From contig NZ_BCWQ01000001.1 of the NCBI RefSeq assembly GCF_001592285.1, positions 1-64,000 on the forward strand: a DNA stretch of 64,000 bases. The letters run 5' to 3'. The translations under genes were made by a program, and so were the position numbers. Positions 36,717 to 51,646 of the stretch are shown here, in pieces. The stretch's first letter is position 1; every line of letters begins with the position of its first letter. Under the pieces are notes generated by a model. The model was not told the origin of the DNA, did no database searches, and saw nothing but the letters and a program-made list of their open reading frames with translations. Source of the stretch: Hydrogenophaga pseudoflava NBRC 102511. Its GTDB lineage: Bacteria > Pseudomonadota > Gammaproteobacteria > Burkholderiales > Burkholderiaceae_C.

Positions 36717-37955
36717 TCACGCCATGGCGACCGAGCGGAACCCGGCCACGATGTCGTTGCGTTCGGGCGTGAAGTAGTTGCGGTACCGGGGGTGGCGCAT
36801 GCGCGGCACGGTGAAGGCACTGGCGCCTTTGAGCACCGGCCGGCCGTCGAACCAGGGCTGCGAGTAGTCCACGTAGGGGTGGGGCGTGAAACCGGGGAAA
36901 GGCGCGAAAGGGCTGGCGGTCCATTCCCAGACCTCGCCCCATCGGAAGCCGGGCTGCTGCGACGCCAGCTCCCACTCGGCCTCGGTCGGCAGCCGCCGCC
37001 CGGCCCAGGCACACCAGGCCTGCGCTTCGAAGGCGCTGAGATGGCGGGCCGGGGCGGACAGGTCCAGCGCCTCCCATTGGCCAAAGCGCTGCTGTTCCCA
37101 GCCCTGTGGTGTCTGGCGCAGGTGGCGCGGTGCCTGCCGTTCGCCCAAAAGGCGCCAGATCCAGCCCGGCGCGCTCCAGAAGCGGCGCTGCGCGTACGAG
37201 CCGTTTTCGACAAAGGGCAGGAACTGCGCCCAGCTCACCGGCTGCGCGTCGATTTCGAAAGCGCCGACGGGCACCGGGTGTGCGCCGAGCTCGTTGTCGA
37301 AGGCGAAGCCCGGGCCGCTGCGGCCCAGCGTCCAGGTGGTGGCATCGACGCCCAGCGAACGGGTGCGGTGCGCAGCGCGATCGGCCTGCGGCAGCCGGAC
37401 CCCGGGATCGAAGCCCAGCGTTTGCGCCATGTGCATCGCGGCCTCGGCGTGCATGTCTTCGTGGAACAGCGCGAGCCGGAAGAAGTAAAGACCGTCGTCG
37501 TTCTCGGGCGCCTCGTCCAGCAGTGCCAGCGTGTCAGCCAGGCTGGCCAGGAGGTCGGCGCGCACCGCGTCGGCATCGGGCAGCGGCAGCTGCCAGCGGC
37601 GGTCGTGCGGCACCTCGCTGGAGTGGTAGAGCGCGTCCGCATCGACGCCCCGGGTGGCCTGGCGTGCGGGTGATCGCGGGGCCTTCGGATCGGCTGCCAC
37701 GCCCAGGTGGCGCTGCGGGTAACGCGCCAGCCACCAGTCGGCGAACCAGCCGATGTGGCCCAGTTCCCAGAGCGGCGGGTTGAGCTCGGGCGTGCAGGGC
37801 ACGCGCAACCCGGGGCCGAGCGCGGCCGTGTAGGCATCGAGCAGCGCCAGGCTGCGGCCGCGCGCGTCCTGCATTGCCTGTGCCAGCACGGCTTTGCCGC
37901 CACGGCGCAGGGCTTCTGCTTCGGACACAATCGCTGAGCTCTGTGGTTCCGCCAT
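36717..37955 (-). CDS. senA: SenA, selenoneine synthase (EgtB homologue)
   Basis: 412 residues from the ATG at 37955, which has GGGAGGG seven bases upstream. Same two-domain plan as EgtB: DinB-like helices with iron ligands in ELGHIGWF (His67) and HEDMHAE (His165, His169), then an FGE-like domain (RRLPTEAEWELAS, GEVWEWTASPFAPFPGF, YRNYFTPERNDIVAGFRS). In SenA the partner of hercynine is a selenosugar rather than a thiol, forming the carbon-selenium bond. Assignment to SenA over a second EgtB rests on its divergent neighbour senB and on senC. Its start codon overlaps that of senB in one CATG. Confidence 0.9.
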   Translation of the reverse strand: MAEPQSSAIVSEAEALRRGGKAVLAQAMQDARGRSLALLDAYTAALGPGLRVPCTPELNPPLWELGHIGWFADWWLARYPQRHLGVAADPKAPRSPARQATRGVDADALYHSSEVPHDRRWQLPLPDADAVRADLLASLADTLALLDEAPENDDGLYFFRLALFHEDMHAEAAMHMAQTLGFDPGVRLPQADRAAHRTRSLGVDATTWTLGRSGPGFAFDNELGAHPVPVGAFEIDAQPVSWAQFLPFVENGSYAQRRFWSAPGWIWRLLGERQAPRHLRQTPQGWEQQRFGQWEALDLSAPARHLSAFEAQAWCAWAGRRLPTEAEWELASQQPGFRWGEVWEWTASPFAPFPGFTPHPYVDYSQPWFDGRPVLKGASAFTVPRMRHPRYRNYFTPERNDIVAGFRSVAMA

Positions 37956-38934
37956 GAAAAAACCCTCCCTGTGTCTCGTGACGCCTGCGCTGGCCGATGC
38001 CAACAACGGCAACTGGCAGACCGCGCACCGCTGGGCGCGTTTGCTAGCGGGCCATTATGAGGTTCGCGTGGTGAAAGCGTGGCCCGATGACCGCATGGCC
38101 GACAACGGTACCGACCTGCTGCTGGCGCTGCATGCGCGGCGCTCGGCCGACAGCGTGGCCGCCTGGGCCCAGGCCCATCCCGACCGGCCGCTGGTGCTCG
38201 CACTCACCGGCACAGACCTCTACCGCGATATCCAGACCGATGCCCGTGCGCAGCGCTCGCTGGTGCTGGCGCACCGCCTCATCGTGTTGCAGGAGCGGGC
38301 GCCCCTGGCCCTGCCCGAGGCCCACCGCGGCAAGTGCCATGTGGTGTTCCAGTCGAGCACGCGGCGCCAGACCCTGGACAAGACGCGCCAGCATCTGCGC
38401 GTGGTGGTGGTGGGCCATCTGCGCGAAGAGAAGTCGCCGCAGACCGTGTTCGAGGCTGCGCGTCTGCTGGCGCCCGATGAGGGCATCCTGATCGACCACA
38501 TCGGCAACGCCCTCGACCCCGCGCTGGCCGATCGGGCGCGCGCGACGGCCGCGGCCTGCCCGCACTACCGCTGGCTCGGCGGCCTGCCGCACGAGGCCAC
38601 GCGCCGCCGCATCCAGCGCGCCCACCTGCTGGTGCACCCCAGCCGCATGGAAGGTGGCGCCCACGTGATCATGGAAGCCGCGCTCAGCGGCACGCCGGTG
38701 CTGGCCTCGCAGATGGATGGCAACCTGGGCATGCTGGGGCCGGACTACGGCGGCTACTTTCCGGTGGGCGATGCGGCGGCGCTGGTGGCGCGGCTGCGCG
38801 AATGCCGCAAGGACATCGCGGGGGCCGGCGATGCCCTGGCCGCCCTGCAAGCACAATGCTCGGCCAGAGCGCCGCTGTTCGAGCCGGCCGCCGAACGGGC
38901 CGCCCTGCTGCGGGCACTGGCCGGGCCGCGCTGA
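37954..38934 (+). CDS. senB: SenB, selenosugar synthase
   Basis: 326 residues from the ATG at 37954. Glycosyltransferase GT-B fold: LVTPALADANNGNWQTAHRWA at the N-terminus in two blocks, LALTGTDLY, VVVGHLREEKSP, LPHEATRRRIQRAHLLVHPSRMEGG and EAALSGTPVLAS. This matches the TIGR04348-type proteins shown to use selenophosphate and a UDP-sugar to make a selenosugar. No clear Shine-Dalgarno precedes it. Translation starts in the same CATG as senA on the other strand, so no intergenic space exists and its promoter must lie inside senA. senC follows 54 bases later. Confidence 0.9.
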   Translation: MKKPSLCLVTPALADANNGNWQTAHRWARLLAGHYEVRVVKAWPDDRMADNGTDLLLALHARRSADSVAAWAQAHPDRPLVLALTGTDLYRDIQTDARAQRSLVLAHRLIVLQERAPLALPEAHRGKCHVVFQSSTRRQTLDKTRQHLRVVVVGHLREEKSPQTVFEAARLLAPDEGILIDHIGNALDPALADRARATAAACPHYRWLGGLPHEATRRRIQRAHLLVHPSRMEGGAHVIMEAALSGTPVLASQMDGNLGMLGPDYGGYFPVGDAAALVARLRECRKDIAGAGDALAALQAQCSARAPLFEPAAERAALLRALAGPR

Positions 38935-38988: not shown

Positions 38989-40062
38989 ATGAACGCCCCG
39001 TCCACGCCCGCCCACACCCAGCCCCGCCTGACCAGCCTCTCGCACGGCGGCGGCTGCGGCTGCAAGATCGCGCCCGGCGTGCTCAGTGAAATCCTCAAGG
39101 GCACCAGCGCCATGCCCATTCCGAAAGAGCTGCTGGTGGGCATCGAGACCGCGGACGACGCCGCCGTCTACCAGCTCAACGACGAGCAGGCGCTGATCGC
39201 CACCACCGACTTCTTCATGCCCATCGTCGACGACCCGTTCGACTTCGGCCGCATCGCCGCCACCAACGCCATCAGCGACGTCTACGCCATGGGCGGCACG
39301 CCCATCATGGCGCTGGCCCTGGTGGGCATGCCGATCAGCGTGTTGTCCACCGACACCATCGGCAAGATCCTGGAAGGCGGGCGCGCGGTCTGCACCGCGG
39401 CGGGCATCCCCATCGCGGGTGGCCACACCATCGACTCGGTCGAACCGATCTACGGCCTGGTCGCACTCGGCCTGGTGCATCCCAGGCGCGTCAAGCGCAA
39501 CGCCGACGCGAAAGTGGGTGACCGCCTGGTGCTGGGCAAGCCGCTGGGCGTGGGCGTGCTCTCGGCCGCGCTGAAGAAGGACGCGCTCAGCGCCGACGGC
39601 TACGCGCAGATGATCGCCAACACCACCAAGCTGAACACCCCCGGCCCGGATCTCGCCGCCATCGCCGGTGTGCACGCGCTGACCGACGTGACCGGCTTCG
39701 GCCTGGCCGGCCACGCGCTGGAGATGGCGCGCGGCTCGGACACCACGGTGACGCTCGACATGGCCCGCGTGCCGCTGATTGGCGGTGTGCGCGACCTGGC
39801 GGCGCAGGGCATGGTGACGGGGGCCAGCGGCCGCAACTGGGCCGCCTACGGCAGCGAGGTGCGGCTGGCCGAATCGCTGCAGCCGGTCGACCAGGCCCTG
39901 CTGACCGACCCGCAGACCAGCGGCGGCCTGCTGGTGGCCTGTTCGCCCGACGCGGTGGACGAGGTGCTGGCGGTGTTCCACCGGCACGGCTTCGGCGCTG
40001 CGGCGGAAGTGGGCGAGATCGTGGCCGCGCAGGCCGACGGCGTGCGCCTGCGGGTGCGCTGA
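38989..40062 (+). CDS. selD: SenC/SelD, selenophosphate synthase
   Basis: 357 residues. It makes selenophosphate from selenide and ATP. The catalytic loop HGGGCGCKI carries Cys23 and Lys26, equivalent to Cys17 and Lys20 of E. coli SelD. Both cysteines are ordinary TGC codons, not selenocysteine. DDAAVY, TDFFMPIVDDPFDFG, GHTIDSVEPIYGL and TDVTGFGLAGH follow the SelD order. No selA, selB or selenouridine synthase gene lies nearby, so here SelD appears dedicated to selenoneine with senB directly upstream. Confidence 0.95.
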   Translation: MNAPSTPAHTQPRLTSLSHGGGCGCKIAPGVLSEILKGTSAMPIPKELLVGIETADDAAVYQLNDEQALIATTDFFMPIVDDPFDFGRIAATNAISDVYAMGGTPIMALALVGMPISVLSTDTIGKILEGGRAVCTAAGIPIAGGHTIDSVEPIYGLVALGLVHPRRVKRNADAKVGDRLVLGKPLGVGVLSAALKKDALSADGYAQMIANTTKLNTPGPDLAAIAGVHALTDVTGFGLAGHALEMARGSDTTVTLDMARVPLIGGVRDLAAQGMVTGASGRNWAAYGSEVRLAESLQPVDQALLTDPQTSGGLLVACSPDAVDEVLAVFHRHGFGAAAEVGEIVAAQADGVRLRVR

Positions 40063-40099
40063 CCCGCCCGGCGAGCTTTCCAACCCAGTGGTGTACCTG

Positions 40100-40795
40100 A
40101 TGAAGCCTCCACGCATTCTCGTTTTCGACATCTTCGGCACCGTCGTCGACTGGCACGGCTCCATCGTGCGCGAGCTGGGCCAGCGCTTTCCGCAGGTCGA
40201 CGCCGACGCCTTCGCGCTCGCCTGGCGCGCGGGCTACCAGCCGGCGATGGAGGCGGTGCGCTCGGGCGGGCGTGGCTTCGTCAAGCTTGATGTGCTGCAC
40301 CGCGAAATCCTCGATGGCCTGCTGCCGCGCTTCGGTCTGGCGCACCTGACCGAAGCCGAGCGCGCCGACCTCAACCGCGTCTGGCACCGGCTCGCCGCCT
40401 GGCCCGACAGCGTGGCCGGGCTCACGCGCCTGAAGTCGCGCTTCACCATCTGCAGCCTGTCCAACGGCAACCTGGGCCTGCTCACCGACATGGCCAAGGC
40501 GGCCTGCCTGCCCTGGGACTGCGTGCTCAGCGCAGAGGTGTTCCGCGCCTACAAGCCCGACCCGCGGGTCTACCTCGGCGCGGCCGACGTGTTCGAGGCC
40601 GCACCCGGCGAGGTGATGATGGTCGCTGCCCACCACGAGGATCTGGCCGCGGCGCGCGACTGCGGCCTGATGACCGCCTACATCGAGCGCCCGCTGGAGT
40701 TCGGCGCGGCGCACATCAAGGACGTGTCACCGGTCGCGGCCAACACCCTTCACGCGAGCGACCTGCTGCACCTGGCCGACCAGCTGGGTTGCTGA
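40100..40795 (+). CDS. HAD-superfamily hydrolase, haloacid-dehalogenase type II-like
   Basis: 231 residues from the ATG at 40100 (MKPPRILVFDIFG); a GTG at 40088 is possible. The four HAD motifs are present: nucleophile Asp in FDIFGTVVD, Ser/Asn in SLSNGN, Lys in FRAYKPDPRVY, and the acidic motif replaced in part by MMVAAHHEDLAAA. This order fits the L-2-haloacid dehalogenase branch, although many members are phosphatases. It lies 37 bases after senC on the same strand and may be co-transcribed. A link with selenium metabolism is possible but unproven. Confidence 0.85.
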   Translation: MKPPRILVFDIFGTVVDWHGSIVRELGQRFPQVDADAFALAWRAGYQPAMEAVRSGGRGFVKLDVLHREILDGLLPRFGLAHLTEAERADLNRVWHRLAAWPDSVAGLTRLKSRFTICSLSNGNLGLLTDMAKAACLPWDCVLSAEVFRAYKPDPRVYLGAADVFEAAPGEVMMVAAHHEDLAAARDCGLMTAYIERPLEFGAAHIKDVSPVAANTLHASDLLHLADQLGC

Positions 40796-41674: not shown

Positions 41675-42067
41675 TCACCCGCCGACCGGCGTGCACAGCT
41701 CCACCAGGATGCCGTCCGGGCAACGCACATAGGACACCACCTGCCCCCAGGGCTTCTGCGACGGCGGCGCCATCTCGCGCGCGCCGGCCGCCACGGCCCG
41801 GGCGTGCGCGGCCGGCACATCGTCCGTGACCAGCGCGATCTCGAAGCCCAGCGGCTGGGCCGAAGTGTCGGCGTGCACGTGGCCACCGGCGAAGTTCATG
41901 TCGCCCAGCTCGTGCGCGGCGAAGGCCAGCGTGGTCTCGCCGGTGTCGAGCTCGCCATAGGTGCCGCTCTCGTGCAGGAAGCGGCGTTTCAGGCCGAAGG
42001 CCTGCTCGAAGAAGGCCAAGGAGGCCGCGACGTCGGGGACGTAGGTGATGGTGTAGCCGAGTTTCAT
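41675..42067 (-). CDS. VOC/glyoxalase-fold protein
   Basis: 130 residues, the normal size of a two-module VOC protein. GYTITYVPDVAASLAFFEQAFG begins the first beta-alpha-beta-beta-beta unit, and SYVRCPDGILVELCTPV ends the second. Glu in the final strand is a usual metal ligand. Such proteins include glyoxalase I, dioxygenases and resistance proteins; the substrate cannot be told. It converges on the COG4315 gene (six bases between ends) and lies 18 bases after chrA on the same strand, so it may be the last gene of the operon that begins at 48046. Confidence 0.85.
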   Translation of the reverse strand: MKLGYTITYVPDVAASLAFFEQAFGLKRRFLHESGTYGELDTGETTLAFAAHELGDMNFAGGHVHADTSAQPLGFEIALVTDDVPAAHARAVAAGAREMAPPSQKPWGQVVSYVRCPDGILVELCTPVGG

Positions 42068-42085: not shown

Positions 42086-43291
42086 TCAGGCCGCCATGGC
42101 CCACCCGATGGTGGCACACCCCGCCACCACCGCCCACGGCGGCCATTTCCATTTCATCAGTGCCAGCAGCGCCACTGCCGCCAGCAGCGCGTCGCCCATC
42201 CCGCGGATGCCGCTGGTGATGACCGGGTTCCACAGCGCGGCCAGCAGCAGGCCGACCACGGCGGCGTTGATGCCCATGAGCGCGGCGCGCACGCGGGGCT
42301 GGGCGCGCAGGCGTTCCCAGAATGGCAGCGCACCCACCACCAGCAGGAAGGCCGGCGCGAAGATGGCTGCCAGCGCCAGCAGTCCGCCGGCCCAGCCGGA
42401 GGGGTCGCTCTGCATGCTGGCACCCAGGAAGGCCGCGAAGGTGAACAGCGGGCCGGGCACGGCCTGCGCCGCGCCGTAGCCGGCGAGGAAGGCGTCGTTG
42501 TTCACCCATCCGGTGGGCACCACACTGGCCTGCAGCAGCGGCAGCACCACATGGCCGCCGCCGAACACCAGCGCACCCGCGCGGTAAAAGGCGTCGACCA
42601 CGGCCAGGGCCTGCGAGGGCAGGGCTGCGGCCAGCAGCGGCAGGCCCACCAGCAGCGCGGCGAACAGCAGCAGCCACAGCGCGCCCGCCCGCCGGCCGAC
42701 GGGCACATGCAAGGGCTCGTGGGCGGTGTCGGATGGCGGACGCATCGCGGCCAGGCCGATGACGGCCGCGACGCCGATGACCAGCAGCTGCAAGGCCGTG
42801 CCGGGCCAGGCGATGAGGACCGCGGCGGCACCCAGCATGAGCGCGCGGCGCGGTGTGTCCGGGCAGAGGCTGCGCGCCATGCCCCAGACGGCCTGCGCCA
42901 CCACGGCGACCGCCACCACCTTCAGGCCGTGCAGCAGGCCCGCGCCCGCGCCGCTTTGCAGCGCGTCGCCCGCCTGTGCCACGCCCAGGGCGAGTGCGAT
43001 CAGGGCCAGGGCCGAGGGCAGGGTGAAGCCGGCCCAGGCGGCGAAGGCGCCTGCGTAGCCGGCGCGCGAGAGGCCCAGCGCCAGGCCTACCTGGCTGCTG
43101 GCCGGGCCGGGCAGGAACTGGCAGAGCGCGACCAGGTCGGCGTAGGCGGCCTCGCTGAGCCAGCGGCGGCGTTCGACGAACTCGTGGCGGAAGTAGCCCA
43201 GGTGCGCCACCGGGCCGCCGAAGCTGGTAAGCCCGAGCCGCAGGAAGATCAGGAAGACCTGCCAGGCACTGCGGTCGGGTGTGGTGTTCAT
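42086..43291 (-). CDS. chrA: ChrA, chromate efflux transporter
   Basis: 401 residues from the ATG at 43291, overlapping the previous stop by four bases (ATGA). Two homologous CHR halves: LRLGLTSFGGPVAHLGYFRHEF with CQFLPGPASSQVG in the first, and FYRAGALVFGGGHVVLPLL with AQAVPGPLFTFAAFLG in the second. These FGGP/GGGH and PGP motifs define the long-chain chromate ion transporter family. It expels chromate from the cytoplasm; sulfate is the structural analogue. It is the last overlapping gene of a five-gene operon. Confidence 0.93.
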   Translation of the reverse strand: MNTTPDRSAWQVFLIFLRLGLTSFGGPVAHLGYFRHEFVERRRWLSEAAYADLVALCQFLPGPASSQVGLALGLSRAGYAGAFAAWAGFTLPSALALIALALGVAQAGDALQSGAGAGLLHGLKVVAVAVVAQAVWGMARSLCPDTPRRALMLGAAAVLIAWPGTALQLLVIGVAAVIGLAAMRPPSDTAHEPLHVPVGRRAGALWLLLFAALLVGLPLLAAALPSQALAVVDAFYRAGALVFGGGHVVLPLLQASVVPTGWVNNDAFLAGYGAAQAVPGPLFTFAAFLGASMQSDPSGWAGGLLALAAIFAPAFLLVVGALPFWERLRAQPRVRAALMGINAAVVGLLLAALWNPVITSGIRGMGDALLAAVALLALMKWKWPPWAVVAGCATIGWAMAA

Positions 43292-44484
43292 GCCGTGGGC
43301 AGGGTGTATCGGGCCATGAAGGCGCGGTCGATGTGGTCCTTCCAGCGCCACACCCAGCCGCCCTCGGCGTGCAGCGGCCCCCAGCTGGCGATGGCGTGAC
43401 CGGCACCGCAGGAGATCAGGTTCAGCGTGTTCGCTGGCGGGTGGTGCGGCTTGAGCGGCTGGCCTTCGTGGGCCGCCAGCAGGTTGTCCGCCAGCGGCGG
43501 GCCGGCGCGCACCGCGTAGACACCGTTCCTGGGGTGCGGCCGGTCGGTGCGGGCGCACACGTCGCCCGCGGCGAACACCTCGGGGTGGCTGGTGCTCTGC
43601 TGGAACTCATTGACCAGCACATGCCCCGATTCGCTGAGCGCCAGGCCGCTGCCCTGCAGCCAGGCCGGCGCGTGGGCACCGATGGCGATCAGCGGCACGT
43701 CGCAGGCCAGCTCGGTGCCGCTGCCCAGCTTCACCACGCCCGGCGCCAGGCCGACACAGGTGTCGCGCAGCACGGTGATGTTCAGCCGTTTGAGCCGGCG
43801 CAGCACGCGCGCCTGCAGGCCGGCGGGGTAGCTGGCGGCGGGTTCCACGCCGCCGGTGATGAGGGTGAAGCGGGCGCCGGCCGCCCCGCGGGTGCGCAGG
43901 CACTGCTCGGCCGCAAACAGCAGCTCCAGCCCGGCCGCGCCCGCGCCGATCACCGCCACCGACAGCGCGCGTTGCTGCGCCTGCTCCAGCACCTGGGGCC
44001 AGAGCGAGGCGAAGACCTCGATCGGTCGCACGATCAGCGCGTTGTCCGCCGCGCCGGGGATCTGTTCTTCGAGCCGCTGGCGGTCGATCACCGGGCCGGT
44101 GTCGATGGACAGCAGGTGGTAGGGCAGGTCGGGCGGCAGGATCTCGTCCTGCGAGCGGCTCTTGCCGGCCGGGCTCAGGCGCGCCCGTCGGCCGGCCGCG
44201 TCGATGCCGCTGCAGCGCGCACGCACCCACTTGGCCCCCGCGGCGCGGATCAGCGGCTCCAGCGGAATCTGGCAGTCGGTCTCGCTGTAGTGGCCCGCCA
44301 CCAGGCCCGGCACCATGCCGCTGTAGGTCTGGTACGGGTAGGGCGTGACGACCGTGATGTCCAGATCGGCCGGCCGCTGCTGCGCCAGGCGCGACAGGAC
44401 ATGGACATGGGCGTGTCCGCCGCCGAGCAGCAGCAGCTTCTTGATTCCGTGGTGCATGGGCCCCGATGTTACGGGGTGTGACAT
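43288..44484 (-). CDS. FAD-dependent oxidoreductase related to the SelD-fused NDH-2-like domain
   Basis: 398 residues from the ATG at 44484, which overlaps the stop of the upstream gene (TGATG); an ATG at 44457 would shorten it by nine. The FAD motif LLLLGGGHAHVHVL, YSGMVPGLVAGHY, the second nucleotide motif VIGAGAAGLELLFAAE, and FAAGDVCA follow the type II NADH dehydrogenase plan. GGGHAHVHVL and the YSGMVPG motif are typical of the family found fused to the N-terminus of SelD in some bacteria (TIGR03169). Here it stands alone, about 3 kb from senC. Its redox partner is unknown. Confidence 0.85.
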   Translation of the reverse strand: MSHPVTSGPMHHGIKKLLLLGGGHAHVHVLSRLAQQRPADLDITVVTPYPYQTYSGMVPGLVAGHYSETDCQIPLEPLIRAAGAKWVRARCSGIDAAGRRARLSPAGKSRSQDEILPPDLPYHLLSIDTGPVIDRQRLEEQIPGAADNALIVRPIEVFASLWPQVLEQAQQRALSVAVIGAGAAGLELLFAAEQCLRTRGAAGARFTLITGGVEPAASYPAGLQARVLRRLKRLNITVLRDTCVGLAPGVVKLGSGTELACDVPLIAIGAHAPAWLQGSGLALSESGHVLVNEFQQSTSHPEVFAAGDVCARTDRPHPRNGVYAVRAGPPLADNLLAAHEGQPLKPHHPPANTLNLISCGAGHAIASWGPLHAEGGWVWRWKDHIDRAFMARYTLPTA

Positions 44485-45263
44485 CAGGGGCCGGTGGTGG
44501 TGGTCCAGCGCAGGTCGGCCACCCAGCCGCTGCTGCGGCTGGCGGTGTTGTCGCTGTCGGCGCCGATCAGCACGGTGGCGACCCTGGGCAGCTCGCCGTG
44601 CGGCGTCTGCGCGCCCTGCGGCAGTTCGTCGCCGAACAGGGTGGTGAAGTCCTGCGCGAGATCGCGGTTCTCCGCGACCCACTGGCCCGCCGCGGTCTCG
44701 CTGCCGCGCAGGCTGATGTAGCGCACGCGCCGTGAATAGGGGTTGGCGCCCTGCAGGCCGGCGGCGCGGCCGCTGTCCCACACGTAGCAGACCGTGGCTG
44801 CGGGCAGGGCCTCGCCGCTGACGCTGCGCGCGATGCGCAGCACGGTGCGTTCGACGAAGGGCACGCGCTCCAGCGGGTGATCGAACATGGCGCAGACCTT
44901 GAGCGCCGCGTCGTCGCCGGCCTTGGTGGTCAGGTCGGGCGAGGCCTTGCCGCCCGAGAGCGGCTGGTCCAGCCGCCAGCGCCACTGCAGGCGCGCGGGC
45001 GGCGCGTCCTGCAGGTCGTGCACCAGGCTGCCGTAGGACGACGCGGTCACCACCTTCACCGCGGGCTGGCCATCGACCTGGCCGGCCTCGATGACGGTGG
45101 GCGGGATCGGCGCCTTCTGCTGGGGAAAACCGACATAGCGCCAGCCGGGGTGGAGGGCGCCGTCGGGCTGGGTCAGCGGCGGCAGCGTCTGCGCGTGCGC
45201 CTGCGCACCCGCCAGCGTGCCGGCCAGTGCTGCGATGAGGGTGGCGGTGTTCCAGGTGTTCAT
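44484..45263 (-). CDS. DUF3047 exported protein
   Basis: 259 residues from the ATG at 45263, with a signal peptide (TATLIAALAGTLAGAQAHA). The motif block LQWRWRLDQPLSGGKASPDLTTKAGDDAALKVCAMFD, the YVWDSGRA turn and RYISLRGSE match DUF3047, a periplasmic family of unknown activity. Two cysteines (KVCAMFD and TVCYVWD) may form a disulfide. It overlaps the upstream gene by four bases (ATGA) and the downstream one by one base, so it is firmly part of the operon with the flavoproteins and ChrA. Confidence 0.85.
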   Translation of the reverse strand: MNTWNTATLIAALAGTLAGAQAHAQTLPPLTQPDGALHPGWRYVGFPQQKAPIPPTVIEAGQVDGQPAVKVVTASSYGSLVHDLQDAPPARLQWRWRLDQPLSGGKASPDLTTKAGDDAALKVCAMFDHPLERVPFVERTVLRIARSVSGEALPAATVCYVWDSGRAAGLQGANPYSRRVRYISLRGSETAAGQWVAENRDLAQDFTTLFGDELPQGAQTPHGELPRVATVLIGADSDNTASRSSGWVADLRWTTTTGP

Positions 45264-47422
45264 GTCCGCTTCCAGTCGTGGTAGCGCTTCACCCAGGCCA
45301 GCAGCCGGTGCGGCTGGTGGGCGCGCTTCCATTCGCCGGCCGCGTACTTGTTGGCCTCGGCCAGCGTGGGGTAGGTGTGGATGGTCCCCAGGATCTTGTT
45401 CAGGCCCAGGCCGTGCTTCATGGCCAGCACGTACTCGGCCAGCAGGTCACCCGCGTGTGTGCCGACGATGGTCACACCCAGGATCTGGTCCTTGCCCGGC
45501 ACGGTCAGCACCTTGACGAAGCCGTGGGCCTCGCTGTCGGCAATGGCGCGGTCCAGGTCGTCGATGCCGTACTTCGTGACCTCGTAGGGAATTTTCCTTT
45601 CCTTCGCTTCCTGCTCGTTCAGGCCCACGCGCGCCACCTCGGGGTCGATGAAGGTGGCCCAGGGGATGACCGAGTAGTCGGCCTTGAACTTCTTGAAGTC
45701 GCCGAACAGCGCGTTCACCGCCGCGTACCAGGCCTGGTGTGCGGCCACGTGGGTGAACTGGAACGGCCCGGCCACGTCGCCGGCGGCGTAGATGTTGGGG
45801 TAGATGGTCTGCAGGTACTCGTTGGTCTCGACCGTGCGGTTCGTGGGAATGCCCAGGTCTTCGAGCCCATAGCCGGTGAGCCGCGCCACGCGGCCGACGG
45901 CGCACAGCAGTTGGTCGAAGGCGATGCGCTTTTCCACGCCAGCGTGTTCCACCACCAGCGTCTTCTCGCCGTTCACCAGCTCGCAGCGCAGCGCCTTGTG
46001 GCCCGTCAGCACGGCCACGCCGTCGGCCTCCAGAGAAGCCTTCGCGAGCGAGGAGACTTCCTCGTCCTCGCGGATCATGACGCGCGGCGCCATCTCCACC
46101 TGCGTCACCTGCGAACCCAGGCGCGCGAAGCTCTGCGCCAGTTCGCAGCCGATGGGACCGCCGCCCAGCACCACCAGTCGCTTCGGGATCTCGTCGAGCT
46201 TCGCGAATTGATCCCACAGCGTGTCGCTGGTGACGTAGCCCACGGTGTCGAGCCCCGGCAGCGGCGGCACGAAAGGCCGCGCGCCGGCCGCGATGACGAT
46301 GCTGCGCGCGGTGAGCCGTTGCGTGCCGCCGCTGTTCAGCGTGATCTCCACCGTCCACGGGTTCACCAGCTTCGTGTAGCCCTGCAGCACCTCCACGCCC
46401 AGGCCGGTGTAGCGCTCCACGCTGTCGTGCGGCTCGATGGCGGCGATCACGTCGTGGATGCGCTGCATCACGGCCTTGAAGCTGAACGTGGGTGCTGCGT
46501 CGCTCAGGCCGTAGTTCGAGGCGTGGCGCATCTGGTGCGCCAGCTTGGCACTCCTGATCAGCGCCTTGCTCGGCACGCAGCCGTAGTTCAGGCAGTCGCC
46601 GCCCATCTTGTGCGCCTCGACCAGCGTCACCTTGGCCTTGACCGCGGCGGCGATGTAGGCCGAGACCAGACCACCCGCGCCCGCGCCGATCACGATCAGG
46701 TTGCGGTCGAAGGTCTTCGGCCGCACGCCGGCCCACTTCGCGTAGACCTTGCGCTTCTGCACCGCCTCGACGATCTTGCGCGCGATCAGCGGGAACAGGC
46801 CCAGCAGCACGAAGCTGCCCAGCAGGCCAGGACTCACGATGCCCTGCAGCGATGTGAGCTGTCCCAGCTGCGTGCCCGCGTTCACATAAACGGCAGTGCC
46901 CGCCAGCATGCCGATCTGGCTGACCCAGTAGAAGGTCCAGGCCTTCATCTTGGTCAGACCCATCAGCAGGTTGATGACGAAGAAGGGCACGACCGGGATC
47001 AGCCGCAGCGTGAACAGGTAGAACGCGCCGTCCTTCTGGATGCCCTTGTCCACCTCGGCCAGGCGCTGGCCAAAGCGGCTCTGCACGCTGTCGCGCAGCA
47101 GGAAACGCGCGGTGAGGAAGGCCAGCGTGGCGCCGATGCTGGAGGCGAACGACACCAGCAGCAGACCCCAGCCCAGACCGAAGATGGCGCCGCCCGCCAG
47201 CGTGACGATGGTGGCACCGGGCAGCGACAGCGCAGCGACCGCGACATAGAGCAGGAAGTAACCCGCGGCCAGCGCCAGCGGCTGCTGCGCGCGCAGCTCG
47301 GCGAAGCGCGCCTGGCTCTGCTGGAGAAATTCCAGGCTGAAGAAGCGGCCGAGGTCGAATGCGAAGAAGGCCACGATACCGATCAGCACGGCCATCAGAA
47401 GCATGAGTTTGCGCAGGTTCAT
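45260..47422 (-). CDS. VTT-domain membrane protein fused to a disulfide oxidoreductase
   Basis: 720 residues. The first 230 form a membrane domain of the VTT/TVP38/DedA type (GAIFGLGWGLLLVSFASSIGATLAF, RLIPVVPFFVINLLMGLTKM). The remainder is a pyridine-nucleotide disulfide oxidoreductase: FAD motif VIGAGAGGLVSAYIA, active-site pair GGDCLNYGCVPSKAL, NAD motif VVLGGGPIGCELA, and a C-terminal dimer domain (GTIHTYPTLAEA). It resembles mercuric reductase-like proteins but lacks their C-terminal vicinal cysteines. It probably reduces a disulfide or electrophile at the membrane. Confidence 0.9.
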   Translation of the reverse strand: MNLRKLMLLMAVLIGIVAFFAFDLGRFFSLEFLQQSQARFAELRAQQPLALAAGYFLLYVAVAALSLPGATIVTLAGGAIFGLGWGLLLVSFASSIGATLAFLTARFLLRDSVQSRFGQRLAEVDKGIQKDGAFYLFTLRLIPVVPFFVINLLMGLTKMKAWTFYWVSQIGMLAGTAVYVNAGTQLGQLTSLQGIVSPGLLGSFVLLGLFPLIARKIVEAVQKRKVYAKWAGVRPKTFDRNLIVIGAGAGGLVSAYIAAAVKAKVTLVEAHKMGGDCLNYGCVPSKALIRSAKLAHQMRHASNYGLSDAAPTFSFKAVMQRIHDVIAAIEPHDSVERYTGLGVEVLQGYTKLVNPWTVEITLNSGGTQRLTARSIVIAAGARPFVPPLPGLDTVGYVTSDTLWDQFAKLDEIPKRLVVLGGGPIGCELAQSFARLGSQVTQVEMAPRVMIREDEEVSSLAKASLEADGVAVLTGHKALRCELVNGEKTLVVEHAGVEKRIAFDQLLCAVGRVARLTGYGLEDLGIPTNRTVETNEYLQTIYPNIYAAGDVAGPFQFTHVAAHQAWYAAVNALFGDFKKFKADYSVIPWATFIDPEVARVGLNEQEAKERKIPYEVTKYGIDDLDRAIADSEAHGFVKVLTVPGKDQILGVTIVGTHAGDLLAEYVLAMKHGLGLNKILGTIHTYPTLAEANKYAAGEWKRAHQPHRLLAWVKRYHDWKRT

Positions 47423-47431
47423 GGGGTCTCC

Positions 47432-48046
47432 TCAGGCGCCGTCGCGCAGCCGCTGCCAGCCCCAGCCGATGCGCAGCGCGGTGGTGATGGCGCACAGCGC
47501 GGCGAAGCCGTAGGCGATGGGGCCGAACCACTGCGGCCACAGGCACATGGCGGCGAAGGCGGCGATGGTCTCGGTGGCTTCGGTGAGGCCGCCGAGGAAG
47601 TAGAAGCTCTTGCCCGGCAGCGCGGTATCGGCCAGGCGGCGCTTCTCGGCCAGCGCAGCGAAGGCCAGGAAGCTGCTGCCGGTGCCGATGAAGCTGGCCA
47701 GCAGCACGGCGGCGGGCAGGGCGTTGGCCGCGGGGTCGGCGAACGCAAAGCCCAGCGGGACCGCGGCGTAGAACAGGAAGTCCAGCGTGATGTCCAGGAA
47801 GCCGCCGCGGTCGGTGGGGGTCGAGGCGCGCGCCACCGCGCCGTCCAGACCGTCGAGCAGGCGCGAGAGCAACAGCAGCACCAGCCCGGCCACGAACTGC
47901 CGCAGGCCGATGGCCAGCGCCGCCGCCATGCCGGTGACGAAGCCGGCCAGCGTGACCGCGTCGGCGCCCACACCCAGCCGAACCAGGGCGGCGCCGGCAC
48001 GGCCGAAGGCCGGTCGCAGGGCCTGCTGGATCGCCCTATCCAGCAT
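47432..48046 (-). CDS. CDP-alcohol phosphatidyltransferase family protein
   Basis: 204 residues with about six membrane helices. The catalytic signature DGLDGAVARASTPTDRGGFLDITLD has the family spacing of DGxxAR, then G, D and D, so it should transfer a phospho-alcohol group from a CDP-linked donor. Identity of the alcohol is unclear; relatives include phosphatidylglycerophosphate and inositol phosphate synthases. It is the first gene of the overlapping operon that continues with the VTT-oxidoreductase nine bases later, suggesting a membrane-modifying function joined with redox enzymes. Confidence 0.88.
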   Translation of the reverse strand: MLDRAIQQALRPAFGRAGAALVRLGVGADAVTLAGFVTGMAAALAIGLRQFVAGLVLLLLSRLLDGLDGAVARASTPTDRGGFLDITLDFLFYAAVPLGFAFADPAANALPAAVLLASFIGTGSSFLAFAALAEKRRLADTALPGKSFYFLGGLTEATETIAAFAAMCLWPQWFGPIAYGFAALCAITTALRIGWGWQRLRDGA

Positions 48047-48133: not shown

Positions 48134-48616
48134 TTACCTGCTGGCCTGCGGTGTCAGCCAGCCGTTCACCCGGGGCTTGAGCCAGGCGCAGTCCACCGAC
48201 CAGTGGCCCACGCCATACAACGCGAGCGCGGCCAGCAGCACGCCCCAGGTGATGTGCTGCTGCAGCGCAGCCGGCGCGATCTCGCTGAGGCTGAGCACCG
48301 CCACCACGTTGACCACGCTCAGGCCCAGCGCGGCAAAGCGCCCGGCCAGCCCGAGCAGCAGCATCGCTGGCAGCACCAGTTCACCCGCGGTGCCCATGAC
48401 CGCCGCGACACCGGGCGAGAGCAGCGGCACGCGGTATTCCTCGGTGAACAGCAGCAGGGTGGTGTCCCAGTCGCGTAGCTTGGTCAGGCCGGACAGGAAA
48501 AACACCTGGGCGAGGTAGGCCCGTGCCGCCAGCGCGGCCAGCGGCTGGGCGCCGTCGAGAGCGGTGGTCAACGCGTTCCAGAGGCTCAGGCCGCGCTGCA
48601 GCAGGCTCGTGTTCAT
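48134..48616 (-). CDS. DoxX-family membrane protein of the bufferin operon
   Basis: 160 residues from the ATG at 48616, four membrane helices. ARAYLAQVFFLSGLTKLRDWDTTLLLF and AAVMGTAGELVLPAMLLLGL match DoxX. In operons of the bufferin/HvfA type this protein is a regular last member, of uncertain function (possibly electron transfer linked to peptide maturation or copper handling). It overlaps the upstream DUF2063 gene by four bases (ATGA), so it is co-translated. The 87 bases after its stop contain nothing I recognise before the phosphatidyltransferase operon. Confidence 0.87.
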   Translation of the reverse strand: MNTSLLQRGLSLWNALTTALDGAQPLAALAARAYLAQVFFLSGLTKLRDWDTTLLLFTEEYRVPLLSPGVAAVMGTAGELVLPAMLLLGLAGRFAALGLSVVNVVAVLSLSEIAPAALQQHITWGVLLAALALYGVGHWSVDCAWLKPRVNGWLTPQASR

Positions 48617-49470
48617 GGGGTCATCTCCAGGTGAGGGGCGGGGTCGGTCAGGCGCTGCACGCCGATGACCAGCCCGTCGGTGACAGTGGCGGTGAGCCAG
48701 GCCGAAAAGTCGAAGGCCGGCGGTTCGGTGTCGGCGGCGCAGGCCGCATCCAGCGCGCCGGGCAGGTCGGCGCCGGCCTGCAGCGCCTGCACCAGCGCGG
48801 CCGCCGAAGGATCGATGGCGGCGATGCGCGGGCGCAGGCCCTGGCGCCACACCAGGGCGTGTTCGCCAATCCCGTCGCGCAGCCGCTGCGCCGCCTCGGC
48901 CAGGCTGGGGTCGCCAAACAGGTGCGCGGTGACCAGGCTGGCGACCGGAAAGCGGCTGCCGATCACCGTGGTGCCGGGGCTGAGACTGAGCGTGAGGCCT
49001 TGCGGGTCTTCGCTGGCCAGCCGCGCGAAGCTGGGCAGATCGGGCTCGGCGTCGGCGGCGCTGCCGGCGCGGTGCAGTGCCCACTCGGCGCGCGCCACGT
49101 CGCCCAGGTAGGGCACGTCGGACAGCTGGTCGCTCGCCTGCAGGAAGCCAGGCAGGGCGGCGCCCCACTGCGCGAGGTCGCCCCCGCGGGGCGGGTGCGT
49201 GTGCCAGAGGTCGCGCGCGAGCAGGTCGAAGTTCTGCTCGCCGAACATCGCGGCGATCACCGGGTAGGCGGCGCGCAGCGCGCGTTCGGCCATCGCATGG
49301 CCGTTGCTGCGGTAGGCCGCCAGGCCTCGTGCGGACTGGGGATGCCACACATCGAGCTGAGTGTTCAGGCGCGCGTCGGCCGCATGCCTGCCATCGCCCG
49401 GTCGCGCGAACAGGGCGTCCAGCAGAAGCTGCTGTTGCTGCGCCAGCGTCAGGGTGTCCAGGGTGTTCAT
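48613..49470 (-). CDS. bufC1: DUF2063 (HvfC/BufC-type) partner protein
   Basis: 285 residues from the ATG at 49470, overlapping the MNIO gene by four bases. An N-terminal DUF2063 helical domain ([32 protein letters not shown]) is followed by a second domain with a beta-rich core, as in HvfC. This protein binds the precursor peptide and pairs with the DUF692 enzyme to form the modification complex. [20 protein letters not shown] is the conserved middle block. Position and overlap leave little doubt about the role. Confidence 0.9.
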
Positions 49471-50366
49471 GCGGCGACCGCCTGTGTGTCGGTGGCCGGG
49501 GCCAGCACCTGCGCCGCGGCCTTGCGGGCTTGGTCGGCTTCTTCCAGCAGAACGGACAGTTCCGGGAGGTCCGTGTCCCATTCGATCAGCGTCGGCACGG
49601 CGCCGAAACGGCCAATGGCATGGCGGTACAGCGCCCAGACCTGCTCGTTCACGCGGCTGCCGTGGTCGTCGATCACGATGTCGCCGCAGTGCCGGTGGCC
49701 TGCGAGATGGATCTCCGCCACATGTCCTGGCGCGATGGCGTTCAGCCAGCGCCGGCATGCGCCCAGCGGGTCGTCGTGTTCGCCGCGCAGCTGGCCGTTG
49801 AGGGCGTTCACAAAGATGTTGTTCACGTCGATCAGCAGGCCGCAGCCGCTGCGCCGCGCGAGCGCGTTGAGGAATTCGGGTTCGTCCATCTCGGCCTCGC
49901 GCCACTGCACATAGGCCGAGAGGGTTTCCACCGCGATGGGGCGGCGCAGGCGGTCCTGCACGCGCTGGACGTTGGCGCACATGGCGTCCAGCGCCGCTCG
50001 GCTCATCGGCACGGGCAGCAGGTCGGCCGCGTGCACCATGGCACCGCGCGCGAAGCTGGCGTGGTCGCTGACCCGCACCGGGTCGATGGCCTGCACGAGC
50101 CGCGCCAGCTGGTCCAGGTGCTCGGTGTCGATACCTTGCGCTGAGCCCAGCGACAGGCCGACGCCGTGCAGGCTCACCGGGTGCTGCGCCCGGCCTTCGC
50201 GCAGCACGGCCAAGGCCGCGCCGCCGGGGGCGAAGAAATTCTCCGAATGGACTTCGATGAAGCCGAGGGCAGGCCGCTGTTCCAGCAGCGCTGCGTAATG
50301 GGGGTGCCGCCAACCGATGCCGACCTCGGGCGCTGCGGCATGAGGCCGATGAGCGTGTGCGGTCAT
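49467..50366 (-). CDS. bufB1: DUF692 multinuclear iron (MNIO) peptide-modifying enzyme
   Basis: 299 residues, TIM-barrel plan. Metal-ligand motifs typical of the family are [57 protein letters not shown] and [16 protein letters not shown] enzymes use two or three irons and oxygen to rebuild cysteines in RiPP precursors; in bufferins they make thiooxazole-type copper ligands. The gene lies 36 bases after the precursor gene and overlaps the DUF2063 gene, a standard bufferin order. Confidence 0.93.
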
Positions 50367-50402: not shown

Positions 50403-50684
50403 TCAGGACTTCTTCATGCCCATCTTGGCGTCGTCCATCGACATGCCGCCCATGGTCTTGCAGGTGCCCGCAGCGACGTACTTCCATTCGCCCTTGTCGT
50501 TGTCGACCTTGGACTGGCCTGCGCAGGAGTGCGAGCCGGAGAGGTTGGCGCAGTCGTTCTGCCCGGCCTTGGCGATGCCGAAGCATTTTTCCTTGGCGGC
50601 GTCCTGGGCCATGGCGGGGCTGGTGAGCATGGCAAGGCTCATCAGCGAAGCGGCGGCGGTGGTGATCATCTGGCGCTGGTTCAT
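50403..50684 (-). CDS. bufA1: DUF2282 bufferin-type RiPP precursor
   Basis: 93 residues with a signal peptide ([21 protein letters not shown]). The mature part holds four cysteines: Cys34 in [16 protein letters not shown], Cys45 in the same block, Cys54 in HSCAGQSK and Cys75 in GTCKTMGG. This is the canonical bufferin 1 arrangement, in which the two central cysteines are modified and the peptide binds copper. The C-terminus is Met-rich ([14 protein letters not shown]), which could add soft metal ligands. It heads the minus-strand operon and is divergent from an ECF sigma factor gene. Confidence 0.92.
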
Positions 50685-50779: not shown

Positions 50780-50838
50780 GGTTCTTACACGCCGCACAAA
50801 AAATATTCCTCGGTCCTCCGCTGGCCGGGTCTTTACAC
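50780..50838 (-). promoter_or_regulatory. Direct-repeat boxes upstream of the bufferin operon
   Basis: On the minus strand GTGTAAAGACCC (50838-50827) and GTGTAAGAACC (50790-50780) repeat in the same orientation, 48 bp apart, in the gap between the precursor gene and the sigma factor gene. GTAA-type -35 elements are known for SigF-like ECF factors that control bufferin operons. The -10 parts are not obvious. Candidate autoregulatory or operon promoters. Confidence 0.4.
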
Positions 50839-50855: not shown

Positions 50856-51443
50856 ATGCCCATGACCCAGAACCCGCCCGACTTCACGACCCAGGTGGCC
50901 GAGTGCCGGGCCTACCTGCTGCGCTTCGCGCGCCTGCAGCTGCGCAACGACGCCTGGGCCGAAGACGCCGTCTCCGAGACCGTGCTGGCCGCGCTGGCCC
51001 GGCCGCAAGCCTTCGAGGGCCGTTCCCAGATGCGCACCTGGCTGGTCGGCATCCTCAAGCACAAGATCATCGACATCCTGCGCCAGCGTCAGCGCGAGGT
51101 GACGCTGGACAGCGGCTCTGACGACGACAGCACCGATCCGCTGGAGCACATGGCCTTCAAGGCCGATGGCCATCACGCCCAGATGCCCGCCGACTGGGGC
51201 GATCCCGAGCAGTCGCTGGGCAGCCGCCAGTTCATGGCCGTGCTCAACGCCTGCACCGAAAAACTGCCGCCGGTGCAGGGGCGCCTGTTCCTGATGCGGG
51301 AGTGGCTGGAGCTCTCCAGCGACGAGATCTGTAAGGAACTGGGGCTGACGCCGACCAATCTCTATGTCCAGCTCCACCGGGCCCGCCTGCGCTTGCGGGA
51401 GTGCCTGGAACTGAACTGGTTTGGACGAACACACACGACATGA
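50856..51443 (+). CDS. ECF-type RNA polymerase sigma factor
   Basis: 195 residues (ATG at 50856 or 50862; neither has a strong ribosome site). Region 2 contains YLLRFARLQLRNDAWAEDAVSETVLAAL and MRTWLVGILKHKIIDILRQ; region 4 contains KLPPVQGRLFLMREWLELSSDEICKELGLTPTNLYVQLHRARLRL. The linker between them is unusually long and acidic (about 85-125). It overlaps the anti-sigma gene by four bases and is divergent from the bufferin operon, matching sigma-controlled bufferin/GIG operons induced by copper or other metals. Confidence 0.9.
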   Translation: MPMTQNPPDFTTQVAECRAYLLRFARLQLRNDAWAEDAVSETVLAALARPQAFEGRSQMRTWLVGILKHKIIDILRQRQREVTLDSGSDDDSTDPLEHMAFKADGHHAQMPADWGDPEQSLGSRQFMAVLNACTEKLPPVQGRLFLMREWLELSSDEICKELGLTPTNLYVQLHRARLRLRECLELNWFGRTHTT

Positions 51444-51646
51444 AGGCCGCTTACCCGTTTCGCCGCACCTGCAAGGAGGCCACCGCACTGATGGTGGCCC
51501 GTGAAGACCGCCAGCTGCCGTGGGCAGACCGCGTCGGGCTGCGCCTGCATCTGATGGTGTGCAAGGCCTGCCCCACGTTCGAACGCCAGATGCTGACGAT
51601 GCGCCACGCGATGAAGCAGTGGCGCGGCTATACAGAAGAAGAGTAG
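51440..51646 (+). CDS. Zinc-finger anti-sigma factor
   Basis: 68 residues, overlapping the sigma factor stop by four bases (ATGA). The zinc-finger signature is HLMVCKAC, with an upstream Cys in RRTCKEA, as in the compact cytoplasmic anti-sigma proteins that accompany this sigma group. No membrane helix is present, so sensing is probably direct, by metal or oxidation of the cysteines. The stop lies inside a second copy of a dispersed hairpin repeat. Confidence 0.87.
   Translation: MKAAYPFRRTCKEATALMVAREDRQLPWADRVGLRLHLMVCKACPTFERQMLTMRHAMKQWRGYTEEE

Follow-up and report, generated by a model that had tools for sequence, protein, structure and literature searches.

Bufferin operons paired with extracytoplasmic function (ECF) sigma factors come closest, among described systems, to a run of ten genes that we analysed in Hydrogenophaga pseudoflava NBRC 102511 (contig NZ_BCWQ01000001.1, positions 1 to 64,000; this stretch of 64,000 nucleotides (nt) is called the window below). 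The run leads from a bufferin precursor gene to a glyoxalase-family gene, and its middle part encodes a YnjF-type lipid enzyme, a membrane-bound disulfide oxidoreductase, a DUF3047 protein, a flavoprotein and a ChrA-type transporter. In the available portions of the papers cited here, SigF of Caulobacter binds GTAACC-N16-CGAA ahead of bufferin operons and heads a regulon that is responsive to dichromate and cadmium (PMC3511200). The genes gigPABT-rpoQ-rsqA of Cupriavidus metallidurans are induced by copper and gold (PMC10304878), and relatives of SigF in Brucella and Azospira respond to hypochlorite or reactive chlorine (PMC8315932). In Escherichia coli, ydjXYZ-ynjABCD is included in the table of the FNR regulon with a site at -60.5 (PMC3688515). 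In addition, Zhang and co-workers proposed that a NADH oxidoreductase fused to selenophosphate synthetase (SelD) produces the reduced substrate of SelD (PMC2432076).

We propose, with a probability of roughly 40%, that the ten-gene run forms the membrane and redox branch of a bufferin-type ECF-sigma regulon that deals with envelope stress caused by metals, metalloids or reactive species. This reading is based on the following evidence. First, the ten genes are co-directional, and their largest gap (87 nt) contains no terminator-like site. Second, the bufferin families stand beside a divergent pair of sigma and anti-sigma genes, as in gigPABT-rpoQ-rsqA. Third, relatives share a promoter-like motif, a conjugative plasmid carries the genes as a joint unit, and the flavoprotein is linked to SelD.

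The ten-gene run and its proteins

The genes of the run, in the direction of transcription, and the divergent regulatory genes are as follows.

50403..50684, minus strand: BufA-like DUF2282 precursor (PF10048, 87.4 bits, cut-off 22.4)
49467..50366, minus strand: BufB, MNIO bufferin maturase (NF050167, 321.1 bits, cut-off 310)
48613..49470, minus strand: BufC-like protein, DUF2063 (PF09836)
48134..48616, minus strand: DoxX/HvfX-like protein, last gene of the bufferin-type operon (PF07681; NF050144 51 of 80, below cut-off)
47432..48046, minus strand: YnjF-type CDP-alcohol phosphatidyltransferase, CDP/YnjF (PF01066)
45260..47422, minus strand: VTTox, a VTT (DedA-like) domain fused to a NAD(P)H disulfide oxidoreductase (PF09335, PF07992, PF02852)
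44484..45263, minus strand: DUF3047 protein (PF11249, 148.8 bits)
43288..44484, minus strand: TIGR03169 'Nterm_to_SelD' flavoprotein, standalone, 398 amino acids (320.0 bits, cut-off 310)
42086..43291, minus strand: ChrA-type (CHR superfamily) transporter (TIGR00937, 335.1 bits, cut-off 171.7)
41675..42067, minus strand: glyoxalase-family gene, probably also part of the run (PF00903; 18-nt gap after chrA)
50856..51443, plus strand: ECF sigma factor, divergent from bufA (NF009173 (PRK12520) 290.5 over 255; TIGR02943 227.7 over 162.2)
51401..51646, plus strand: anti-sigma factor, zf-HC2 (NF052368 67.8 over 50; PF13490)
50780..50837, minus strand: two TGTAARRACC boxes upstream of bufA, candidate ECF -35 elements (starts 50837 and 50789)

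The first-pass annotation had treated the genes from CDP/YnjF to chrA as an operon of five. Coordinates and domain scans reproduced its genes, families and junctions exactly (a 9-nt gap, then overlaps of 4, 1 and 4 nt), and all five genes lie on the minus strand, start with ATG and stop with TGA. Its extent had to be revised: rather than a unit of five, these genes belong to the downstream part of a run of ten with one direction, which also takes in bufABC-doxX and the glyoxalase gene. From bufA to the glyoxalase gene the junctions are 36, -4, -4, 87, 9, -4, -1, -4 and 18 nt, and the gap of 87 nt is the one between the end of bufABC-doxX and the CDP/YnjF gene. Three terminator-like sites were seen in the region against 3.2 expected (one of them in VTTox at 46905 and one past the glyoxalase gene at 41623); thus, no weight was given to these sites. 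A search for sigma-70 promoters in the region found none, with 0.4 expected by chance. The glyoxalase gene, the bufferin operon with its sigma and anti-sigma genes, and a second, fused flavoprotein-SelD gene of this genome were absent from the first-pass annotation. Just beyond the glyoxalase gene lies a gene of the secreted-repeat lipoprotein family (41291-41668, plus strand, PF03640).

The results of the protein comparisons specified several of these assignments. The BufA-like precursor scored 28.2 of 60 with the BufA2 equivalog NF050166, and it was therefore not filed as BufA2. The CDP protein and E. coli YnjF share 50.5% identity over 202 amino acids (E 9e-55), and this full-length similarity, together with the linkage to YnjBCD in relatives, places the former in the YnjF group; its best score with the named phosphatidylinositol (phosphate) and archaetidyl synthase equivalogs of NCBIfam was 52.2 of 180, below the cut-off. 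VTTox carries PF09335, PF07992 and PF02852 in one protein. It has the redox pair CLNYGC at 277 and the His motif HTYPT at 682 of a disulfide oxidoreductase, and these cysteines and the His are invariant across 12 aligned sequences, the window protein included.

The N-terminus of the DUF3047 protein is hydrophobic, as judged by eye, and the protein is probably exported. Its structure model (pLDDT 88.3) is a beta-sandwich. The closest structure is the beta domain of glucuronyl C5-epimerase 6i02 (Z 13.0, root-mean-square deviation 3.5, 159 residues), and many carbohydrate-binding modules are also similar. Since the query-normalised Foldseek TM-scores do not exceed 0.46, we claim for this protein only the general beta-sandwich class; the predicted likeness to carbohydrate-binding domains shows no function, and a search against the sequences of the PDB gave no match. 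The flavoprotein is a TIGR03169 member encoded by a standalone gene, that is, not an Ndh-SelD fusion. Its nearest solved sequence is the NADH dehydrogenase-like protein YjlD (E 3.5e-13), followed by FSP1, and we take it to be of the NDH-2 type.

According to the proposed reading, envelope stress would release the sigma factor, and the ten-gene run would then be transcribed. VTTox would pass NAD(P)H electrons through its flavin and the CLNYGC pair to a disulfide or a thiol-bound metal or metalloid, which would be reduced at the inner membrane, and its VTT domain may move a lipid or small substrate. The NDH-2-like flavoprotein would reduce selenium (or sulfur) species and so feed selenophosphate synthetase, here SenC of selenoneine synthesis. 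Furthermore, ChrA would export oxyanions, and the YnjF-type enzyme and the DUF3047 protein may remodel or sense envelope lipid or glycan. What the sequence itself carries of this proposal is the gene order, the overlaps, the families, the redox motif of VTTox, the recurrence of the module and the motif common to bufA, VTTox and ArsS of relatives.

Recurrence in relatives and the promoter-like motif

In the relatives set of 118 genomes, the window genome included, 75 had a flavoprotein match (E up to 1e-40), and 60 neighbourhoods were taken. Of these, 43 are loci of the same genus whose flavoprotein has an identity of 46% or higher; contig ends truncate some of them. DUF3047 is present in 36 of these 43 loci and stands immediately before the flavoprotein in 33, and VTTox is present in 32. 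A type II haloacid dehalogenase (HAD) gene occurs in 35, in most layouts between SelD and the flavoprotein. The other counts are 27 for SelD, 18 for the selenosugar synthase SenB, 17 each for CDP/YnjF, GT2 and an APH-like kinase, 15 for ChrA and 14 for DUF547. CDP/YnjF is directly before VTTox in six loci, and ChrA directly follows the flavoprotein in all 15. These counts define a conserved core, VTTox-(DUF547)-DUF3047-flavoprotein, in which YnjF and ChrA are variable, and judged from the 43 neighbourhoods the five-gene arrangement is not chance. The neighbourhood survey that the first-pass annotation had suggested thus found the gene set conserved, with the core recurring in the genus and in other families, and the lack of conservation that would have spoken against the annotation was not seen. 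At L039:2244-5534 and other genus loci, a TIGR04283-TIGR04282 fusion and the APH-like kinase (named by eye, without a family match) are divergent and face VTTox; in some genus loci a C92 permuted papain-like amidase is also divergent and faces VTTox.

We also surveyed 80 named VTTox loci, the best 80 of 561 relatives, which are mostly from Pseudomonadota. CDP was found in 28 of these 80 loci, the flavoprotein in 26, DUF547 in 23, ArsS in 20, GT2 and GTcofC in 18 each and DUF3047 in 16, followed by SelD (7), DUF692 (6), BufA (5), SenB (4) and ChrA (3). The genomes G060 (L045 and L122) and G062 (L064 and L136) each appear in both locus sets. Bufferin genes lie near VTTox or ArsS, in varying order, in L097, L098, L101, L113, L144, L159, L176 and L177.

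The SigF-type sequence recurs in front of these genes. In the gathered loci, exact GTAACC-N16-CGAA has 26 copies at spacing 16, compared with 0-6 for each of 18 other spacings. Six copies are 23-42 nt before VTTox, three are before ArsS, one is before bufA, and three precede genes with a sigma-70 domain. The relaxed motif GTAA[CG]N-N15/16-CGA[ACT], searched up to 150 nt upstream of genes, was found before VTTox in 59/143 regions, before ArsS in 19/39 and before BufA in 15/21 (18 loci; one motif in L098 was counted twice). In controls it was rare: CDP 0/46, DUF3047 0/65, DUF547 2/53, SelD 1/44, SenB 0/31, HAD 0/41, GT2 0/59 and ChrA 0/22. Other spacings gave 0-7 motifs, the reverse strand gave 2 for VTTox, 1 for ArsS, 1 for BufA and 3 for the flavoprotein, and shuffled VTTox upstream regions had a mean of 0.84 and a maximum of 4. 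In genus loci the relaxed motif typically starts 49-61 nt before VTTox; the strict SigF motif was found before VTTox in 0/61 genus and order loci, where the relaxed form GTAAG...CGAC prevails.

A second element, the TGTAARRACC box, occurs before bufA in 6/13 regions, before VTTox in 1/56 and before none of eight other families. The two boxes upstream of the window bufA, TGTAAGAACC and TGTAAAGACC, are of this type and have no fitting -10 element. In addition, the searched neighbourhoods contain 27 homologs (E up to 1e-15) of the window sigma factor, many of them no more than about 1 kb from VTTox or ArsS. We infer, short of proof, that the window run became attached to the bufferin promoter.

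The same partners are also found around YnjBCD-type ABC transporter genes. The window VTT domain is 33% identical to YdjX and 32% to YdjZ of E. coli, where ydjXYZ-ynjABCD-ynjE is flanked by ynjF, with selD about 5.6 kb beyond (topB-selD; L196). YnjB and/or YnjC occur in 27 of the 160 loci L036-L195, with the YnjBCD-type genes adjoining YnjF and often VTTox. For instance, L198, from another family, has flavoprotein-VTTox-YnjB-YnjC-YnjD-YnjF as one run and DUF3047 in divergent orientation. Among the 151 genomes of a class sample, YnjB was found in seven, all of which have YnjF (nine in total; p 1e-10), and six of the seven have SelD (34 in total; p 5e-4), or four of five without the genus (p 0.008). 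The available portions of PMC3836016, PMC8803141, PMC7818093, PMC10127716 and PMC2731931 report no direct selenium role of ydjX, ydjZ, ynjB, ynjD or ynjF.

A joint unit is present on the E. coli IncC conjugative plasmid pYDC637 (L204, NZ_KP056256.1 149551-166636), which carries bufA-bufB-bufC-doxX-VTTox-flavoprotein-YnjB-YnjC-YnjD-YnjF and, on the opposite strand after YnjF, an ECF sigma factor, an AhpD-like protein and a type II HAD. Identity to the window proteins is 54% for VTTox, 51% for CDP, 36% for BufB, 34% for the flavoprotein and 33% for HAD (131 residues), and the plasmid flavoprotein scores 287 bits with TIGR03169, below the cut-off of 310. The plasmid collection contains 75 records with YnjB, and some of these have the size of a chromosome. 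With the plasmid YnjB as query, 73 records were found, 24 of them at least 99% identical; among these the gene context was examined for pYDC637 alone. Near-identical YnjB is present in plasmid records of Klebsiella, Salmonella, Citrobacter and Providencia. On an unannotated plasmid of Ciceribacter (L206), flavoprotein, VTTox and CDP share one stretch and a YnjB match lies close by, and Pseudoalteromonas (L211) has VTTox-DUF547-YnjBCD-YnjF. The importer unit YnjBCD also exists alone, as shown by L209, L210 and L212, with YnjF-YnjBCD and neither VTTox nor flavoprotein, and by Sinorhizobium (L205), with YnjBCD and none of the searched families. The mobilizable plasmid pSFD01 of Sphingopyxis (L207) has flavoprotein, NrtS, an ECF sigma factor and VTTox beside Tn3 and insertion sequence (IS) elements.

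One could argue from such variation that there is no joint function, and that stress and selenium genes are kept together by inherited order and chance overlap. The content of the genus loci varies in this way (CDP adjoins VTTox in 6/43, ChrA follows the flavoprotein in 15/43 and SelD is near in 27/43), most flavoprotein loci taken come from one genus, and the four loci just named have the transporter genes without VTTox and flavoprotein. However, the same partners meet in different orders and on different replicons (L198, the IncC plasmid, Ciceribacter and Pseudoalteromonas), YnjB and YnjF co-occur in 7/7 genomes, and the promoter-like motif is held in common. We therefore regard the absence of any joint function as improbable.

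Several results weigh against reading the ten-gene run as part of a bufferin-type regulon. In the available text on Caulobacter, cells that had lost sigF or two of its bufferin maturase genes were no less viable under dichromate or cadmium (PMC3511200). In C. metallidurans, deletion of rpoQ raised gig expression in metal-treated cells (PMC10304878); thus, the control by RpoQ is assumed in that source and not proven. The flavoprotein motif is weak (5/93 on the forward strand against 3 on the reverse strand). After collapse at 70% identity the motif remains in 7/38 VTTox, 6/17 ArsS and 4/6 BufA representatives, and in 5/49 for the flavoprotein. Much of the motif count is therefore relatedness, and VTTox, ArsS and BufA are still well above the shuffles. 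In the window itself, bufA and VTTox lack GTAA[CG]N-N15/16-CGA, and the CDP gene lacks it by stricter patterns; on pYDC637 no motif was found upstream of bufA, VTTox or the sigma gene, and the plasmid sigma factor matches that of the window over 48 residues only. The bufferin operon is found in just 7 of the 43 genus loci. Finally, read-through across the 87-nt gap is itself presumed, and no data on substrates, induction or phenotype came to light for the five genes.

Arsenosugar-type clusters and the selenium link

In other families of the order, VTTox and the flavoprotein lie beside ArsS (TIGR04167; 453.5 and 447 bits in the two order-mates tested), TIGR04282 and TIGR04283 glycosyltransferases and DUF547. 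VTTox was found at 74 loci in 68 of the 118 genomes. TIGR04283 is within 12 kb at 45 of these loci, ArsS at 19, SenB at 19, a standalone flavoprotein at 41 and one labelled as fused at 4; standalone here means an open frame below 760 amino acids, so that some truncated fused copies (G043, G071 and one of G048) are counted among them, and G030, which has both forms, is labelled fused. In Polaromonas (L131, L134 and L163), ArsS-GT2-GTcofC is divergent from VTTox-DUF3047-flavoprotein, and in the tree Polaromonas falls into the group that is sister to the clade of the window flavoprotein. G111 (L114), a 99% complete genome, has ArsS, VTTox, DUF547, glycosyltransferases and DUF3047 but lacks SelD and any flavoprotein match at E 1e-40.

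These clusters could mean that the locus is a remnant or branch of an arsenosugar-type pathway to an organometalloid glycan or lipid, in which VTTox, DUF547, DUF3047 and the flavoprotein handle the product of ArsS, TIGR04282 and TIGR04283, the Hydrogenophaga locus having lost ArsS and the window strain also TIGR04283. The proximity of TIGR04283 and ArsS at 45 and 19 of the 74 loci, the order-mates and the Polaromonas sister group fit this idea, as does the predicted DUF3047 fold with its similarity to carbohydrate-binding domains, and the CDP-alcohol transferase might build the lipid. However, searches of the window genome gave no match to TIGR04167 (E 1e-40) or TIGR04283 (E 1e-30), ArsS is found in 0/43 genus flavoprotein loci, and the 17-kb stretch of pYDC637 gave no match to ArsS, GT2 or GTcofC. 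We regard an arsenosugar-type pathway as an unlikely explanation. Since the window genome lacks the two families that its kin possess, the window operon looks like a reduced relative of the ArsS cluster. The links to bufferins with their ECF sigma factor and to ArsS suggest a wider role in metal and metalloid stress.

The selenium genes of the window and the neighbouring HAD gene are as follows.

40088..40795, plus strand: haloacid dehalogenase type II, HAD (TIGR01428, 158.1, cut-off 125.4)
38989..40062, plus strand: SelD/SenC, convergent neighbour, single-domain type (NF002098, 545 bits; GGGCGCK motif)
37954..38934, plus strand: SenB selenosugar synthase (TIGR04348, 446 bits, cut-off 300)
36717..37952, minus strand: SenA selenoneine synthase (NF041186, 510.9 bits, cut-off 420)

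SenA, SenB and SelD/SenC together make up a selenoneine cluster beside the operon, and the five operon genes are on the strand opposite to SenB and SenC. The first-pass annotation had placed the flavoprotein about 3 kb from senC and in the family often fused to SelD. Both statements hold: the end of SelD/SenC is 3.2 kb from the flavoprotein gene, and the TIGR03169 score is 320 bits over 310.

Furthermore, the flavoprotein is linked to SelD in other genomes. It is adjacent and convergent to SelD in L083, L132 and L180, and fused to SelD in L143, L168 and L161; in Limnohabitans (L143) the fusion is beside SenB, with VTTox-DUF3047 next door. The window genome has a second copy, a fused flavoprotein-SelD of 761 amino acids with a CGGC motif (G000:C2 42632-44917; L096:8633-10918), whose gene directly adjoins YnjDCB-type ABC transporter genes. 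We considered whether the operon arose as a split of this fused gene and rejected it, for the tree (65 of 94 rows, with every third genus row used) sets the fused forms apart from the window clade. Eleven fused forms are in one well-supported group of 13 rows; the other two were not scored as fused, and one of these is at a contig end.

SelD was detected in 102 of the 118 genomes. It was undetected in 3 of 62 genomes with a standalone flavoprotein against 13 of 56 others (p 0.0036). Of these three, G006 and G043 are 81-82% complete, and in G071 the gene hits a contig end and groups with the fused forms; G043 and G071 carry SenB, which suggests that SelD was missed. Gene context thus ties the flavoprotein to SelD, and as far as such context goes the selenium link is real. 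The flavoprotein probably serves selenophosphate synthetase, and the gene data agree with the reduced-substrate proposal for this protein, not for the whole operon.

For VTTox the result was different. In the class sample of 151 genomes there are 52 VTTox carriers, of which about a dozen matches cover the oxidoreductase part only; 36 of the 52 lack SelD and 16 have it (p 0.06). VTTox as a selenium gene was thus not upheld. It co-occurs with fused flavoprotein-SelD genes in 11/17 genomes (p 0.007).

These data lend partial support to the reading of the first-pass annotation, a dedicated membrane redox system for the oxyanions selenite and chromate. Its selenium part stands by gene context, and its chromate part has some backing from ChrA and from the homologous SigF regulon. 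ChrA lies in the operon and next to the flavoprotein in 15/43 genus loci, the flavoprotein family is near or fused to SelD, and a probable link of DedA to selenite is given by the title of Ledgham 2005, as cited in PMC3836016 and PMC10127716. However, attachment of ChrA to the flavoprotein was seen in this genus only, so chromate is not the core role. The majority of VTTox carriers without SelD also leaves VTTox untied to selenium, and the family scans of VTTox gave general disulfide-reductase families with no oxyanion-reductase cut-off exceeded. A dedicated selenite and chromate system is therefore quite unlikely.

Beyond the bufferin-type regulon proposed for the window, all these loci may be versions of one undescribed, partly plasmid-mobile membrane module, an idea that we hold to be rather doubtful. 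The module would comprise bufferin, a VTT-disulfide reductase, a SelD-type flavoprotein, the YnjBCD importer, the YnjF lipid enzyme and an ArsS/glycosyltransferase branch under one ECF-sigma promoter. It would shield the envelope by reducing and routing thiol-bound metals and metalloids and would bring selenium to SelD, and E. coli ydjXYZ-ynjABCD/ynjF would be a reduced form without the oxidoreductase.

Comparison with described systems

The operon is a new variant of the bufferin/gig-type ECF-sigma stress unit, with a VTT-disulfide reductase module and a SelD-following flavoprotein. The combination as one pathway was not found among the papers listed in the literature searches, which covered mostly work outside subscription journals. 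It connects genes that have been annotated separately (bufferins, VTT-oxidoreductase fusions, SelD-type flavoproteins, ydjX-ynjF and ArsS clusters) through common order, mobility and a promoter-like motif, and several uncharacterised genes become testable as one system. This offers a direct test for the role of the flavoprotein domain fused to SelD, for the role of E. coli ydjXYZ-ynjABCD/ynjF, and for targets of gig/SigF-type sigma factors beyond bufferins.

Parts of the operon have counterparts in described proteins. VTTox has the same domain fusion as the DedA-pyridine nucleotide oxidoreductase proteins of COG0398, the commonest COG0398 fusion in the available text of PMC10127716, where it is in print without operon context or function. 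The flavoprotein is of the same type as that of the Ndh-SelD fusion proteins, proposed to make the reduced selenium substrate (PMC2432076, PMC2398784, as far as available). Unlike in those fusions, the window flavoprotein is standalone, apart from SelD and on the other strand, and the fused forms are separate in the tree.

The E. coli genes ydjXYZ-ynjABCD/ynjE/ynjF/topB-selD resemble the locus in their VTT proteins, in YnjF and in the nearby selD, and YnjBCD is present in relatives of the window. However, the VTT proteins of E. coli are separate, and no fused oxidoreductase, TIGR03169 or DUF3047 is annotated in that stretch, whereas YnjBCD of the window genome is on another contig beside the fused flavoprotein-SelD (L096). 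With the ArsS/TIGR04282/TIGR04283 clusters the locus shares the recurring VTTox, DUF547, DUF3047 and flavoprotein, and ArsS often has the same motif (19/39); the difference is that the window genome gave no match to TIGR04167 or TIGR04283.

The nearest likeness is to the bufferin operons. The target table of SigF, in the available part of PMC3511200, has no VTT-oxidoreductase, ArsS or TIGR03169 gene, and the published gig operon stops after gigT, whereas the window run has six more co-directional genes (PMC10304878, available portion). Nevertheless, as in gigPABT-rpoQ-rsqA of C. metallidurans and the SigF bufferin operons of Caulobacter (PMC10304878, PMC3511200), DUF2282-MNIO-DUF2063-DoxX of the window is divergent from an ECF sigma/anti-sigma pair, and relatives of the window carry the Caulobacter SigF sequence GTAACC-N16-CGAA before VTTox and, once, before bufA.

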